From Chloroflexota bacterium (GTDB lineage Bacteria; Chloroflexota; Anaerolineae; Anaerolineales; Anaerolineaceae), in the NCBI GenBank assembly GCA_021779955.1, contig JAJXZS010000012.1, positions 1-43,948 of the forward strand: a stretch of DNA of 43,948 bases, in the 5' to 3' direction. Below the pieces are notes generated by a model. The model searched no databases and had not been told where the DNA came from. It saw only the letters and a program-made list of their open reading frames with translations. Below, one piece after another: positions 6,452-43,948 of the stretch (the stretch's first letter is position 1; the number at the start of each line of letters is the position of its first letter). Position numbers and translations under genes: made by a program.

Positions 6452-7510
6452 ATGGAAGAACACGATACCACGGGGATTATCCTGCTCAATCGCTATAAAT
6501 TATTGCGCCAGATCGGCAAAGGCGGCATGGCACTTGTCTTTGAAGGCAAAGACCTGATGCTTGAGCGCCCGATCGCGGTTAAACTACTTCGCAATGATTT
6601 CTCTAAAGACGCTGATTTTCAGAATAGGTTCCGCCAGGAAGCGCGTTCTGCGGCTAACCTCTCCCATCCGGGGATTGTCACCATCTATGATTTTGGCATC
6701 GACCCCCAGGGAATCTTCATTGTCATGGAATATGTCGCCGGAAAAGACCTTAAAACTCGCATCCATGAAAAAGGTTTCTATTCGGCTGAAGAGGGCATCC
6801 CTTTGATGATTCAGGCTTGTGCGGCACTCGGCTATGCGCACAGGTCGGGCATCGTCCATTGCGACGTCAAACCTCACAACATGCTCGTCACTAATGACCG
6901 TCGCTTGAAGATCACTGACTTTGGAATCGCCCGCGCATTGGCGACGATCAATGCTGAGGAACGAGCCGAAGTAGTCTGGGGTTCTCCCCAATACCTTTCG
7001 CCTGAACAGGCCAAAGGCGAACCCCCTTCTCCAGCTTCAGACGTGTACTCCCTGGGCGTGGTTATGTATGAAACCTTCACGGGAAAGCTTCCATATGCAA
7101 CCAATAACGAAGAAGAGCTCGCCAGGTTGCGCGAAGAGAGCTCTCCCACTCCGCCCCACCTGATCAATCCCGAAATCTCTCCCTCCCTCGAACAGATCAT
7201 CCTCAAGGTGCTCTCTCGCGAGCCTTCCTCGCGCTATCGCACAGCCGATCAACTTGGCCGGGTATTGATGACCTTTGGCACGCAGCCGGTGAACCTCTAT
7301 TCAGTCCCTCCCGCCCGAGAAACCAAACCCTCGTTGGCGATGCCCATCATTCCCCCGTCTGCGTCTGATACTGAAATTGAAGAACCTGAAAAGGGCGAGG
7401 TCGATTGGAAAACGATCGGCTATGCCTTGCTTGCTGTTTTGCTGGTTGGCGGGTTGATCCCATTTTGGCTCTATATCTGGTTCACGGTAAAATCGCTTAT
7501 GGGTGCATGA
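6452..7510 (+). CDS. Membrane-anchored Ser/Thr protein kinase (HCD variant)
   Basis: A 352-residue PknB-like kinase. Residues about 15-280 are the kinase domain: IGKGGMALVFEG loop (21-32), Lys44 in IAVKLL, HCDVKPHN (136-143), DFG (156-158) and GSPQYLSPEQAKG. The RD arginine is Cys137, which defines a non-RD kinase and may mean no activation-loop phosphorylation is needed; the catalytic Asp138 is kept. A Pro-rich juxtamembrane stretch (about 285-318) leads to one transmembrane helix (about 322-346) and only about six residues beyond it, so there is no external sensor domain, unlike PASTA kinases. The ATG at 6452 has no Shine-Dalgarno and is probably leaderless. Its stop overlaps the first codon of rpe (ATGA). 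Another kinase lies upstream on the opposite strand, but domain architecture differs. Confidence 0.93.
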   Translation: MEEHDTTGIILLNRYKLLRQIGKGGMALVFEGKDLMLERPIAVKLLRNDFSKDADFQNRFRQEARSAANLSHPGIVTIYDFGIDPQGIFIVMEYVAGKDLKTRIHEKGFYSAEEGIPLMIQACAALGYAHRSGIVHCDVKPHNMLVTNDRRLKITDFGIARALATINAEERAEVVWGSPQYLSPEQAKGEPPSPASDVYSLGVVMYETFTGKLPYATNNEEELARLREESSPTPPHLINPEISPSLEQIILKVLSREPSSRYRTADQLGRVLMTFGTQPVNLYSVPPARETKPSLAMPIIPPSASDTEIEEPEKGEVDWKTIGYALLAVLLVGGLIPFWLYIWFTVKSLMGA

Positions 7511-8172
7511 TGACAGACTATATTCTTTCTGCTTCGATCCTTTCAGCTGATTTCTCGAACCTCGCAGATCAAATTCACCAATGTGAACAGGGCGGCATCG
7601 ATTGGATTCATGTCGATGTCATGGACGGTCATTTTGTCCCCAATATCACCATGGGGCCTTTCATCGTCGAAACCTGCCGGCGGATTACTGTCCTGCCTCT
7701 GGACGTTCACCTGATGATCGAAACCCCGGAAAAATACATCGATGACTTCGCCAAAGCTGGCGCGACAGGTCTCACAGTCCATCCCGAAGGAAACCCGAAC
7801 ATCCACCGCACGCTACAGCACATCCGTGCCCTCAACTGCCGCCCAGGCATCGCCATCAACCCTGGCACTTCCCCCGAATCGATCGAATATCTGCTCCCTC
7901 TGGTTGATATGGTGCTGGTAATGTCGGTCAACCCCGGTTTCTCGGGGCAATCTTTCATCCCCGAAGCTGTGGATAAGATCGCTGTGGTAAAATCTCTCAG
8001 CGCTAAATGGAAGCTGCCTATCGATATCCAGGTGGATGGCGGGATCTCGCCCGATACCATCGCGATCCCCCGTAAGGCAGGTGCAAATGTGTTTGTTTCT
8101 GCCACCGCAATCTTCAAGAATTCAGCCGGTATTGTCGCGGGTATTCACACTCTGCGTGAAGCCTTAAAATAA
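7507..8172 (+). CDS. rpe: Ribulose-phosphate 3-epimerase
   Basis: Interconverts ribulose 5-phosphate and xylulose 5-phosphate in the pentose phosphate pathway; a cytoplasmic metal-dependent TIM barrel. The 221-residue protein has the full set of family motifs: SASILSADF at the N-terminus, HVDVMDGHFVPNITMGP (metal-binding His and Asp), DVHLMIETP, VMSVNPGFSGQ (phosphate region) and VDGGIS (second catalytic Asp). Starts at 7507 and 7510 (adjacent ATGs) are both possible; the longer frame from 7405 lies inside the kinase gene and is not used. The overlap with the kinase stop implies translational coupling, a frequent arrangement of rpe after a kinase gene. A palindromic terminator begins at the last base of its stop codon. 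Confidence 0.96.
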   Translation: MMTDYILSASILSADFSNLADQIHQCEQGGIDWIHVDVMDGHFVPNITMGPFIVETCRRITVLPLDVHLMIETPEKYIDDFAKAGATGLTVHPEGNPNIHRTLQHIRALNCRPGIAINPGTSPESIEYLLPLVDMVLVMSVNPGFSGQSFIPEAVDKIAVVKSLSAKWKLPIDIQVDGGISPDTIAIPRKAGANVFVSATAIFKNSAGIVAGIHTLREALK

Positions 8173-39394: not shown

Positions 39395-41134
39395 CTAGCG
39401 GTCCACTTCGCCCAAAACGATATCCAGCGAGCCCAGAATGGTCACAGCATCGGCAATTTTCATCCCAAGGCACATCTGCTCCAGCCCGGTCAGGTTGACG
39501 AAAGATGGAGAGCGCACGTGATACCGCTTCGGATTTGGTTTTCCATCGGAAACGACGTAAAATCCCAATTCGCCCTTCGGCCCTTCGACGCGGCCGTAAG
39601 CCTCGCCCGCCGGCACTCTCACCTGGTACTGAGGTCGTCCGGTCATGATCGGGCCATCGGGCATCTGGTCGAGCACCTGTTTCAGGATCCGCACGCTCTG
39701 CCGCATTTCTTCCAGGCGCACAAGATACCGGTCGTAAACATCCCCGTGCATTTTGGTGATGACATCGAATTCCAGCCGTTCGTAAATGCTGTAAGGATCA
39801 GCCCTCCGCACGTCGTACGGAACGCCCGACGCGCGCAGCACCGGTCCTGTGATCGAGGTGTTGATCGCCTGCTCGTCCGTCACCACCCCAACGCACTGCG
39901 TGCGAACCTTGACGATTTCACTGTCGGTGAGATAGCGGTCTAGCTCATCGATCTTGCGCGGCAGCCGGTCGTGCACCAGAGAGTGCACTTTCTTCAGCGT
40001 TTCAGGCGGAATATCTCTTGCTACCCCGCCAAACCGGAAGTAGTTGCACATCATCCGCGAACCTGCAGTCGCCTCGAAGACATCCAGAATGAGCTCGCGC
40101 TCTTCGAGTGAATATAGCGATGGGGTAAAGTATGCTCCCAGGTCGTTGAGCAAAAACCCGTTTGCCATGATGTGGCTGGCGATCCGGGTCAACTCCGCCA
40201 TCATCACCCGCAAATACTCAGCCCGCTCGGGAGGAGTAATGCCCATCAACTTCTCTACCGCCACAGCGTAGCCGAAATTGTTGCTCATCGATGTGATGTA
40301 GTCCAGCCTGTCGGTATAGGGCATGTTTTGCAGAAAAGTGTTCCGCTCGCCGATTTTCTCATGATTGCGATGGAGATAGCCAAGCACGGGTTTCAGGCTG
40401 ACGATCGCCTCCCCTTCCGTGGCAGCCACCATGCGGAAAACGCCGTGCGTGGAAGGATGTTGCGGACCCAGGTTCAGAATCAATTGCCCGGTCTCAAGTC
40501 CTTCGGTTTCGGCCTCCGGCTGCATGAGATCGATGAGTGCTTCCTCAGTTGGCGGCGTCCAATTCTTCGGAGTGAAATCCGGAGGATATTGCACGTTATC
40601 GTTGAATGGATTTTTGCTCTCATTCGGTTCGGCTTTACCATCGGGCCAGCGGCTTTTGAAGGGCTTGGCTTCTTCTTCGTAGAAAGGCTCCTTCCAGTCT
40701 TTGCGCAGCGGGTGACCTTCGAACCCTTCCCATAACAGGATCCTGCGCAGATCCGGGTGGCCGCTGAACTTGACCCCGAACAAATCCCATACTTCGCGCT
40801 CCTGGAATTCTGCGCCTTTGTAAATTTTGGTCACGGATGGAACAATTGGACTCTCGCGGTCCACGACGACCTTCAATTCAAGTGGTCCGCCGCCGATCGA
40901 CTTGAACACATGATAGACGACTTCAAGCGTCGCTTCGGGGAAATTGTCCACCGCAGTCAAAGAAGAGAGAAAATCGTATCCAAAGCGTTGGCTGAGTTGC
41001 TCGAAGACATCGGCGATCTTTTCTGCCGGAACAATCCATCCTGAGTACCCCTGGCGGGTCTCCGCGGTTCCTGATGAAGCAAGATACTCCGCTTCGCCCT
41101 GTACCCCCGCGGGAGCAGTGAACTCGTCGCTCAT
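39395..41134 (-). CDS. nuoCD: Fused NADH-quinone oxidoreductase subunits C and D
   Basis: A 579-residue fusion. NuoC-like sequence occupies about 1-200 ([43 protein letters not shown]); NuoD-like sequence occupies about 205-579 ([21 protein letters not shown], then [15 protein letters not shown] and the C-terminus [20 protein letters not shown]). NuoCD supports quinone binding and N2 cluster surroundings. NuoCD fusions are known in other bacteria. Start overlaps the nuoB stop by ATGA and has GAGG upstream. Complete in length. Confidence 0.95.
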
Positions 41135-41892: not shown

Positions 41893-42447
41893 ATGAAAAA
41901 ATATTCGACCCGCAAAAAGATATTGGATTTACTTTCGAGCCGGCAGTCGGTCACGGTGATCGAACTGAGTCGTTTGCTGAAACTGACAAAAGCAGACGTG
42001 CGTTATCAGCTCGCGCGTTTGTTGGACGAAGGCTTTGTGCTCAAATCACCCCCTCCTGATGAGCATTCAAGTGCTGGCAGGCCGCCTTCCTCCTTCGGGC
42101 TCTCGACCAAAAACCTGCCGCCCATAGTCGCAAGATTCCTGGATGGTATTAGCATGCTATTCAGCCGCCCCGAGATCGATTCTCTCACCCGGGACGTGAT
42201 CCTGGACTCGCTGCTCGACTCGATGACTGCCAATTTCCATCCCCACAGCTCAGGCTCGGCCAGGATGAACGAGATCGTCAAGTACCTCAACAGCCTGGGC
42301 TTCTCTGCCAGATGGGAAGCCGGCAGCTCGGGCCCCAAGATCATCCTCTACAACAACCCTGCGTCCTTCTACCTTAATCATCCCCTCATTCGCTATGACG
42401 TCACCGAAAAACTCGTCCGCCGCCTGATGAATTCTACTGAACCGTAG
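41893..42447 (+). CDS. Winged-helix (ArsR/MarR-like) transcriptional regulator
   Basis: A 184-residue protein. Residues about 5-75 form a winged helix-turn-helix ([43 protein letters not shown]) with a wing ending [13 protein letters not shown]. The remaining 110 residues are a helical C-terminal domain with no recognised ligand site and no cysteines of ArsR metal-sensor type. It diverges from nuoB, and an inverted repeat sits between the two genes. A target in respiration is an inference from position. Its 3' end is duplicated 123 bp downstream as non-coding sequence. Confidence 0.85.
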
Positions 42448-42449
42448 GG

Positions 42450-42510
42450 GTGGAGCATCGTGGAGACGCCCCGAACGCAACAAAACCCTCGCCCACTCAC
42501 GAAGCTTCTA
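42450..42510. repeat. 61-bp palindrome-ended repeat, copy 1
   Basis: Starts GTGGAGCATCGTGG and ends CACGAAGCTTCT. The ends are near-perfect inverted copies of each other, as in copies 2 and 3, but copy 1 has a mutated left end (GTGG, not GTGA) and right end. Begins 3 bp after the stop of the regulator gene. Confidence 0.75.
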
Positions 42511-42570
42511 ATTCGCTATGATGTCACCGAAAAACTCGTCCGCCGCCTGATGAATTCTACTGAACCGTAG
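42511..42570 (+). pseudogene. Duplicated 3' fragment of the winged-helix gene
   Basis: Repeats the last 19 codons and stop of the regulator, with a single silent difference (GAC to GAT). It has no start codon or promoter of its own and is part of the second 123-bp copy. Shows that the duplication began within coding sequence. Confidence 0.8.
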
Positions 42571-42572
42571 GG

Positions 42573-42633
42573 GTGAAGCATCGTGGAGACGCCCTGAACG
42601 CGACACAACCCTCGCCCACTCACGAAGCTTCAC
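42573..42633. repeat. 61-bp palindrome-ended repeat, copy 2
   Basis: Left end GTGAAGCATCGTG and right end CACGAAGCTTCAC are 13-base inverted repeats with one mismatch. The centre is GC-rich (GAACGCGACACAACCCTC). No ORF, so a REP- or MITE-like element. Confidence 0.78.
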
Positions 42634-42793
42634 CCTCAAGCAACCCCAGGCTGTAATGCGCGTGGTCTCATACGCCCCTACCCCAACGCATGCACCCTCC
42701 ATGTCTCTCTCGTACCTGCACCCTTGACAACCGCCCTGATGATGCTTTTCGTCAGCGGTGTGGTGCCCACCCCTGCCCCGGAGCATACACGGC

Positions 42794-42854
42794 GTGAAGC
42801 ATCGTGGAGACTCCCTGAACGCGACACAACCCTCACCCACTCACGAAGCTTCAC
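42794..42854. repeat. 61-bp palindrome-ended repeat, copy 3
   Basis: Same 61-bp unit as copy 2 with only two differences by eye (GACTCCC for GACGCCC, and CTCACCC for CTCGCCC). It is separated from copy 2 by 160 bp and lacks the regulator-tail sequence, so it is an independent copy, not part of the tandem duplication. Confidence 0.78.
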
Positions 42855-43003
42855 CCCTGGTTCGACCGATCACTTCAAATTACCAACCTTACAATTATGA
42901 CATTGCCACCAAATTCGCTTCCCAGTTCTTCCCGTAAGTCCTGATGACTAAATACTAATTTCCACCCACGGTTCTCGAATCTCGGTTTACGGTTCTCGCG
43001 CCT

Positions 43004-43948
43004 TTACTCCACCGTCACCGACTTCGCCAGGTTTCTCGGCTGATCGACATCCAGCCCCCTCAACCTTGCGATGTGATACGCCAGCAACTGCAGCGGAATG
43101 ACCGTCACCACGGGGCTGAGCAGCCAGGGCACTTCCGGAATCCAAAACACGCCGTCGACCAGGCTCGCCACCCGCTGATCTCCTGAAGTCGCCACGGCGT
43201 ACACCTTGCCGCCCCTCGCCTTCGCCTGCTCGATCTGGCTGATCATCTTCTCGTACCACGGGTCATTGGGAGCAATCGCCAGCACCGGCATATCCTCATC
43301 GATCAGCGCGATCGGCCCGTGCTTCATCTCTCCCGCAGCATACCCCTCGGCATGGATGTACGAAATCTCCTTAAGCTTGAGCGCTCCTTCATAGGCAATC
43401 GGCATATTGATCCCGCGCCCCAGGAACAGCATATCCTTCGAATCTTTGAGCGTCTCGGCGATGCGCACCACTTCAGGCTCATGCTCCAGGCAGACCCCAA
43501 CAAGTTCGGGAACCAGGCTCAGATCGTGCGCAAATGTGATCCTCTCATCCTTGGTGATCGTGCCCCGCAGGTCCGCGAGCAGCACCGCCAGCATATACAG
43601 GTCCACCAGCGGAGCGGTGAAAGCCTTCGTCGATGCCACGCCGATTTCCGGCCCGGTTTGCATCGAGATGAAACCATCTGATACGCGCATCGCCTGCGAT
43701 CCAATCGCGTTGACGATCGACCACACCAGAGCGTGCTTTTTCCGCGCTTCTTCCATCGCTGCCAATGTGTCTGCTGTTTCGCCCGACTGGCTGATGGCCA
43801 GCACCAGCGTGCGCTCATCGATGATCGGGTCCTCGTATCGGAATTCGCTTGCGATCTCTACATTGCACGGAATGTGTGCGATCCGCTCCAATAACGTTTT
43901 GCCAACCATGCCGGCGTGTGCTGCTGTTCCGCAGGCAGTGATGATGAT
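43004..43948 (-). CDS. glmS: Glutamine:fructose-6-phosphate aminotransferase, C-terminal part
   Basis: The frame is open to the window's end; 314 codons are visible. They cover both SIS sugar-binding domains: ACGTAAHAGMVGK at the upstream edge, the phosphate loop SQSGETADT, GRGINMPIAYEGALKLKE with KEISYIHAEG, GEMKHGP, and the C-terminus PRNLAKSVTVE ending at a TAA. The enzyme makes glucosamine-6-phosphate from fructose-6-phosphate and glutamine, the first step towards UDP-GlcNAc. The N-terminal glutaminase domain and start codon lie outside the window; the internal ATG at 43909 is not the start. The ACGT motif at the edge shows the frame continues upstream. Confidence 0.96.
   Translation of the reverse strand: MIITACGTAAHAGMVGKTLLERIAHIPCNVEIASEFRYEDPIIDERTLVLAISQSGETADTLAAMEEARKKHALVWSIVNAIGSQAMRVSDGFISMQTGPEIGVASTKAFTAPLVDLYMLAVLLADLRGTITKDERITFAHDLSLVPELVGVCLEHEPEVVRIAETLKDSKDMLFLGRGINMPIAYEGALKLKEISYIHAEGYAAGEMKHGPIALIDEDMPVLAIAPNDPWYEKMISQIEQAKARGGKVYAVATSGDQRVASLVDGVFWIPEVPWLLSPVVTVIPLQLLAYHIARLRGLDVDQPRNLAKSVTVE

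Follow-up and report, generated by a model that had tools for sequence, protein, structure and literature searches.

Three hairpin repeats lie near the end of the window, by which we mean the whole 43,948-nt stretch of DNA analysed here, at a place where two ORFs converge and 556 bp separate the stop codon of the upstream ORF from the downstream ORF (Table 1). The window belongs to a 2.83-Mb assembly of 56 contigs, which we refer to as the home genome. A sequence-only reading had placed three copies of a 61-bp palindrome-ended repeat at 42450-42854. The repeats proved to be real and three in number, and the arms quoted, GTGAAGCATCGTG and CACGAAGCTTCAC, are present as given in copies 2 and 3, but the unit had been drawn too small. 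The true unit of about 69 nt begins with GTAG (at 42444 and 42567), three bases before the GGGG foot, and forms a hairpin of 68-70 nt whose 16-bp stem consists of 10 bp (GGGGTGAAGC/GCTTCACCCC), one conserved A.A mismatch and a further 6 bp. The loop measures 31-33 nt in the elements of the home genome. Over 66 nt, the identity to the middle copy (42570-42635, 100%) is 88% at 42447-42512 and 95% at 42791-42856.

Table 1. Features of the hairpin region, in positions of the window
Feature	Coordinates	Strand	Remarks
Upstream ORF	41893..42447	+	184 aa; helix-turn-helix regulator-like by eye
Tandem duplication unit 1	42385..42507	+	3′ end of upstream ORF and copy 1
Copy 1	42444..42508	+	GTAG-tagged hairpin; right end cut at tandem-duplication junction
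Tandem duplication unit 2	42508..42630	+	upstream ORF tail and most of copy 2
Copy 2	42567..42636	+	complete: GTAG, 10-bp stem, A.A mismatch, 6-bp stem, loop
Copy 3	42788..42857	+	complete hairpin; CACG in place of GTAG
Downstream convergent ORF	43004..43948	-	glmS-like by eye

The first two copies are part of a 123-bp tandem duplication, the units of which are 95% identical and which takes in the end of the upstream ORF (63 nt, comprising 20 codons and the stop). The TAG stop of this ORF is supplied by the GTAG of copy 1 (42444-42447). The ends of copy 1 do differ from those of the other copies, as had been noticed, but not through ordinary divergence: its right end was lost at the junction of the duplication. 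In a related Anaerolineaceae MAG (DNOU01000210.1, isolate UBA8906), these two genes are again adjacent and convergent, their stops lying about 40 bp apart as read by eye. This locus (L269), the only one among 41 pattern matches of an empty-site scan that encodes a relative, is about 67% identical and cannot be aligned at the junction, and hence provides no base-resolution empty site. No repeated flank was found on both sides of the element in the aligned home copies. Elsewhere in the window, a 579-aa ORF at 39395-41134 on the minus strand resembles by eye a NuoC-NuoD fusion and lies beside NuoB- and NuoI-like genes.

When folded as RNA, copy 2 was more stable on the plus strand than all 200 shuffles (z -4.1), and on its minus strand only 1 of 200 shuffles was as good (z -2.9); the corresponding figures for copy 3 were a z of -2.9 and 2 of 200, and copy 1 folded no better than shuffles (z +1.1, 167/200). 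The arm motif alone, with up to two mismatches, is weakly enriched in the window (8 occurrences against 4.3 expected, a number reached by 5 of 100 shuffles). The folds of copies 2 and 3, together with the further copies in the genome, indicate that the hairpins are not chance structures.

Those further copies are numerous. The sequence-only reading had suggested dispersal of the repeat in the genome, to be abandoned if no copies were found elsewhere; the count was made, the home genome holds about 30 copies, and that ground for abandoning the proposal therefore falls away. Using a 66-nt query, blastn returned 20 matches in the assembly at E<=10, 17 of them outside the window and the weakest doubtful; after one without a hairpin (L019) was dropped and two others (L011 and L017) were joined into one element, 18 were left. 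A search of the home genome with a left-arm pattern brought up further subfamilies. In total, 28 home copies were aligned, and the covariance model built from this alignment found at least 33 home-genome places at E<=0.01 (32 of which were listed; 28 of the 33 had trained the model), a lower bound because all 33 candidates scored qualified. The copies occur on nine further contigs (C4, C6, C11, C12, C13, C21, C25, C30 and C54), and their flanks differ except inside local arrays. Mean identity among the 28 copies is 46% in the loops (28% when shuffled) and 78% in the stems. Copies on different contigs reach at most 87% identity, so the aligned copies show no sign of recent dispersal, and the family in the home genome looks old. 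On C4, five tandem copies of another long-loop subfamily, spaced 85 bp apart (L044:12031-12438), begin 5 nt behind a gene that by eye resembles that of dihydrolipoamide dehydrogenase. Short palindromes of the form GTAGGGG...CCCCTAC occur beside the long-loop family at L039:5951-5979 (C54, 29 nt) and L048:5991-6017 (C30, 27 nt).

The two ends of the home elements are not alike. GTA directly precedes the G-run in 16 of the 18 copies found by blastn, a count free of query bias because the query lacked GTA, and GTAG is absent from copy 3 and from C54:23090. At the right end, CTAC stands in register in none of the 28 home copies, with near misses at C4_12371, which has TTAC, and at C30_36963, where CTAC is one base off. 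When the right arm was allowed to end anywhere within 45-99 nt, 27 of the 28 elements measured 67-71 nt, the exception being the truncated copy 1. For copies retrieved with the whole unit, the search itself partly dictates this length; the copies found by the left arm alone agree with it (the other C4 copies, C11, C13, C21:20581, C21:20607, C25:7730 and C30:36963).

The stem is conserved as a structure. Across the 28 copies, standard pairs fill 92.0% of the paired cells (84.0% in shuffles), changes on both sides of a pair affect 37 cells (11.6 in shuffles), and the covariation score is 0.260 (0.122 in shuffles); each of these three values was reached by 0 of 500 shuffles, and two other measures were unremarkable (79 and 43 of 500). 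Sliding the partner by one to three columns lowered pairing to 37-50%. Kinship among the copies inflates the covariation scores. As for position, 30 elements of the home genome form 16 sites, two weak places (C15:60 and C32:76375) having been left out. A simple ORF heuristic places an element no more than 20 nt from a stop codon at 9 of the 16 sites and not at the other 7; the GTAG side adjoins the stop at 7 of these 9 sites, and the orientation is opposite at the other 2. The position near stops agrees with published descriptions of GTAG REPs (PMC3733652).

Related genomes carry elements built in the same way, whose stems are better paired and whose ends are often GTAG...CTAC. The covariance model matched 30 of 151 genomes, the home genome included, and none of the 15 other genomes of the genus, in a search that scored up to 33 candidates per genome under stricter filters. 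Among the matches listed, some of these 30 genomes show short palindromes of 25-40 nt (e.g., G028, G123 and G143), which are not long-loop elements. A strict pattern that used no model and left the arm spacing free within 26-56 nt (52-82 nt in total) matched 28 of the 301 genomes searched in the order, compared with 0 for the reversed control, and the matches listed measured 62-70 nt in total, with one of 79 nt. In the fetched loci, which were partly picked by the model or the pattern, 69 of the 75 distinct dispersed elements extend over 65-69 nt to CCC, where 46-101 nt were allowed.

It is in these relatives that hairpins of like architecture lie beside and inside genes for RAYT, an HUH tyrosine transposase. 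The linkage emerged when coordinates of weaker Y1 matches in copy-rich genomes were compared with those of the elements. In G082, a 172-aa RAYT (L147:8442-8957) is situated between two elements. Full-length RAYTs from nine genomes (G062, G077, G106, G132, G181, G206, G208, G213 and G288) contain a long-loop element in frame, and a tenth genome, G241, has an embedded element likewise, with the front part of the gene masked. The embedding site is located between the HUH motif and a GSxGAIxQNFKS stretch, and the element there reads RGEA...(D/N)ASP or close variants; G109 provides a frame-broken case of an element in a RAYT. Nine of ten aligned RAYTs carry the embedded element, which is not a frequency because nine of the ten were chosen through element-bearing loci. 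Four RAYTs match NCBIfam NF047646 (REP_Tyr_transpos) with E values of 8e-18 to 2e-19, below the curated cut-off, and the sole match of our RAYT profile in the PDB at E<=0.001 was E. coli TnpA-REP (4er8, E 2.8e-7).

The strength of this association depends on how the loci were obtained. The 59 loci brought in by elements were reduced to 39 by merging overlaps and dropping those in which a scan found no element, and a RAYT lies within 600 bp at 8 of the 39. Among Y1_Tnp loci chosen with Pfam, 0 of 30 from close relatives (L085-L114) and 1 of 28 from copy-rich genomes and controls (L184-L211) hold an element. An apparent linkage in G035 (L096) was rejected, as only one of its two matches was perfect and the other had 3 mismatches. 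The RAYT profile matches 23 of the 30 genomes with covariance matches and 70 of the 121 without, a weak association that is perhaps due to common RAYTs with other REPs, and G027, with 19 covariance matches, yielded no RAYT at E<=1e-6.

Palindrome embedding in RAYTs is general. An inverted repeat scoring at least 9 follows the HUH motif in 24 of 33 RAYT ORFs (L212 being counted twice), compared with 0 of 33 in an interval of equal length behind it and 1 of 33 in the interval before HUH (L166), where masked bases account for the score. The score of L241 is 9, and its shuffles reach 11; L185 scored 5 with an interval trimmed by the motif search, though an element is present there. The 30 loci brought in by the RAYT profile (L232-L261) comprise 19 that were scored, 5 repeats of RAYTs already listed and 6 unscored for misfit of the motif search (L240, L247, L250, L253, L258 and L261); 15 of the 19 had the inverted repeat, or 14 when it had to exceed the best of 20 shuffles. 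The embedded palindromes vary, with a long loop in some RAYTs and short in others, such as GTAGGGGCGCAGCG c CGCTGCGCCCCTAC in L243. Throughout L237-L260, in many relatives, GTAG palindromes that are short or long and quite unlike in sequence are read in frame at the same loop of the RAYT protein.

An intact RAYT was not found in the home genome with either Pfam Y1_Tnp or the RAYT profile, both at E<=1. The profile hit one place, C22:13451-13669, where its alignment spans positions 115-187 of the 188 in the model, i.e., just the C-terminal portion beyond the embedding site. Ahead of this fragment and in the same open frame is a GTAG palindrome of 29 nt, its end 28 nt away, and behind the fragment (L262:1444-2030) is a tandem array of units of about 57 bp that contain GTAGGGGCGTATGGCC. 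Because the front part is missing and the palindrome is short, unlike the type in the window, the fragment does not qualify as the cognate enzyme. Comparable truncated copies, consisting of an element and the 3′ half of a RAYT, are present in G206. In that genome, one RAYT is complete with its embedded element, one is frame-broken and one is truncated and starts at the element (L212:3475-4032, 6940-7840), a pattern that points to the embedded element as a place of breakage or recombination. The sole Y1_Tnp match by Pfam in the home genome (C32:235518-235847, minus strand) falls within a 512-aa protein (L021:1450-2988, minus strand) that joins a region like a response-regulator receiver, just under the Pfam cut-off, to a Y1 transposase domain. 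Since long open frames with a Y1 domain were found in many relatives, this fusion suggests a domesticated transposase.

Overall, we consider it very probable that all three units belong to a long-loop type of non-autonomous GTAG REP, spread by a RAYT that either has been lost or is absent from the assembly. There is support for the REP reading. For the REP/BIME-like mobile family and the RAYT-type mobiliser that the sequence-only reading had proposed, dispersal and the GTAG tag bear out the former, and the hairpins beside and inside the RAYTs of relatives speak for the latter, but an intact RAYT was not found at home. The link to RAYT comes from the relatives, from which we infer that an enzyme of their kind moved the home-genome copies. 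Among the RAYTs of relatives, none was found to carry exactly the home subfamily, and the elements that those RAYTs do carry pair better and often have two feet, unlike the home copies with their mismatched stem and GTAG on one side only. By analogy with the published biochemistry of other REPs, the transposition would proceed through single strands. The elements would fold on single-stranded DNA, where a RAYT would recognise the GTAG foot and the stem and would cut and re-join the elements, causing their spread, often to sites just behind genes. The RAYT gene itself could carry such an element in frame, as in relatives, and the home genome would since have lost the mobilising enzyme, unless it is missing from the assembly. 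In the window, the local 123-bp tandem duplication would have raised the copy number further.

Three other explanations were weighed. According to the first, the elements are miniature inverted-repeat elements of a DDE transposase of the IS630/Tc1 type, and the TA of GTAG...CTAC is a target duplication. CTAC directly follows 77 of 119 distinct elements of relatives (both strands and RAYT-embedded elements counted), which speaks for it, but at home it is found in register in none of the 28 copies despite its two near misses, although GTA remains at the left in 16 of 18. Moreover, the bases around the TA are conserved as well, and the elements occur beside and inside RAYT genes; we regard this explanation as improbable. 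We think it equally improbable that the units are regulatory RNA hairpins selected behind genes, as stabilisers of mRNA 3′ ends or terminators, and are not mobile. The sites close to stop codons, the covarying stem and the stable RNA folds of copies 2 and 3 would all suit such a role. However, the single terminator-like match, on the minus strand inside copy 1, is at chance level (1 against a mean of 1.0 in shuffles), Rfam gave no match in the window at the gathering threshold, the other 15 genomes of the genus lack covariance matches, and 2 of the 9 sites near stops are oppositely oriented. A mobile element may also act on mRNA. Local tandem duplication alone, with nothing mobile, would account for copies 1 and 2 and for the further tandem arrays at C4 and C54 but is refuted as a full explanation by the copies on nine other contigs with different flanks outside local arrays, and we give it almost no credence.

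Other element classes were considered and rejected. CRISPR-like spacers came to mind for the unrelated-looking loops of near-constant length, but the arms are inverted and the inner stem covaries; additionally, similar loops recur in distant copies in G206 and G186. An integron attC site was rejected because its core sites are absent and the orientations are mixed within clusters, and an intrinsic terminator because of the chance level of terminator-like matches.

The long-loop REP is best placed next to known systems by its features. For the GTAG REP families 1-24, Di Nocera et al. 2013 (PMC3733652) list stem lengths of 5-13 bp and loop lengths of 2-20 bp; these REPs often lie no more than 20 bp from the 3′ end of a gene and often provide its TAG stop, and GTAG repeats are also reported there from Chloroflexi. 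Our elements share with these the GTAG tag, the site downstream of genes and the stop codon taken from GTAG, and they are dispersed, multicopy and mostly extragenic, with GTAG at the 5′ foot and a stem conserved as structure. They differ from the families described there in the 10+6 bp stem with its mismatch and in the loop of 31-33 nt. A GTAG REP is a palindrome of 20-40 bp with a loop of 2-20 nt, and at 68-70 nt our elements exceed it in both; we therefore regard them as a variant that works like a REP. In relatives, a RAYT is flanked by or contains elements, as is expected of RAYT-associated REPs.

Compared by features alone, the closest match is subclass 2.4 of TnpA-REP and its REPs. As characterised in the relevant parts of Quentin et al. 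2018 (PMC6006769), this subclass has double-foot REPs as well as canonical long REPs whose stem base has three G-C pairs, and also REPs within the transposase gene that leave the frame unbroken, generally between HUH and Y. In-frame embedding as such is therefore not new. In contrast to our loop, the search rule given there specifies 2-5 nt or a bulged second stem, and the home form is one-footed, contains the A.A mismatch and was found with no intact transposase. On the biochemical side, TnpA-REP is reported to cut single-stranded REPs; for the E. coli enzyme, GTAG is described as crucial and a stem bulge as required, and the role of GTAG in its group as more limited (PMC8266576).

Like the REPINs treated in the corresponding passages of Bertels and Rainey 2011 (PMC3116915), in which the spacer seems constrained in length and in its ability to form a hairpin, with compensatory changes, our elements consist of two conserved arms around a variable spacer. 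The arms of a REPIN, however, are REPs in inverted pairs, whereas each arm here is half of one hairpin, and the GTAG at both outer ends of a REPIN is lacking at home, where no CTAC is in register, and is seen with 77 of the 119 elements of relatives. Rickettsia palindromic elements and other intragenic REPs, as introduced in PMC3733652, are likewise palindromic DNA read within proteins; in contrast to both, the host protein here is the transposase itself, at one fixed loop. Among the open-licence papers listed in our literature searches, none describes long-loop REPs in Anaerolineae in its title or abstract. What is new here is the long loop of near-constant length and its coding copies.

We further considered, as a tentative and rather doubtful idea, that the in-frame copy embedded in the RAYT might be the master copy, with the enzyme copying the hairpin out of its own gene. 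Ten long-loop elements lie between HUH and the FKS motif, nine of 68 nt and one of 65 nt to CCC, all frame-compatible and open; two further elements elsewhere in RAYT ORFs, of 66 and 69 nt, are frame-incompatible. Among the dispersed elements of relatives, 62 of 75 have one or both strands open in the RAYT frame, compared with 48.6 (sd 4.1, maximum 59) in 200 sets of shuffled loops, a comparison in which the opposite strand was approximated and which overstates the coding bias because the copies share ancestry. The lengths of only 33 of the 75 fit the RAYT frame, and the home copies showed no coding bias, 19 of 28 being open in the RAYT frame and 19 and 21 in two others.

If the embedded copy were indeed the master, the dispersed elements would be pieces of coding sequence, reading frame and hairpin would jointly hold the length of the element, and the transposase would not depend on having its own flanking ends. 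Breakage at the embedded element, as in G206 and at the short palindrome in the home genome, would then be one way in which the transposase dies. Apart from this idea, the elements found in 28 of the 301 genomes of the order extend the GTAG REPs to hairpins with a long loop of nearly constant length. The embedding of very different palindromes at one protein loop makes it testable whether embedded copies seed new REPs and how the length and stem of a REP are selected.
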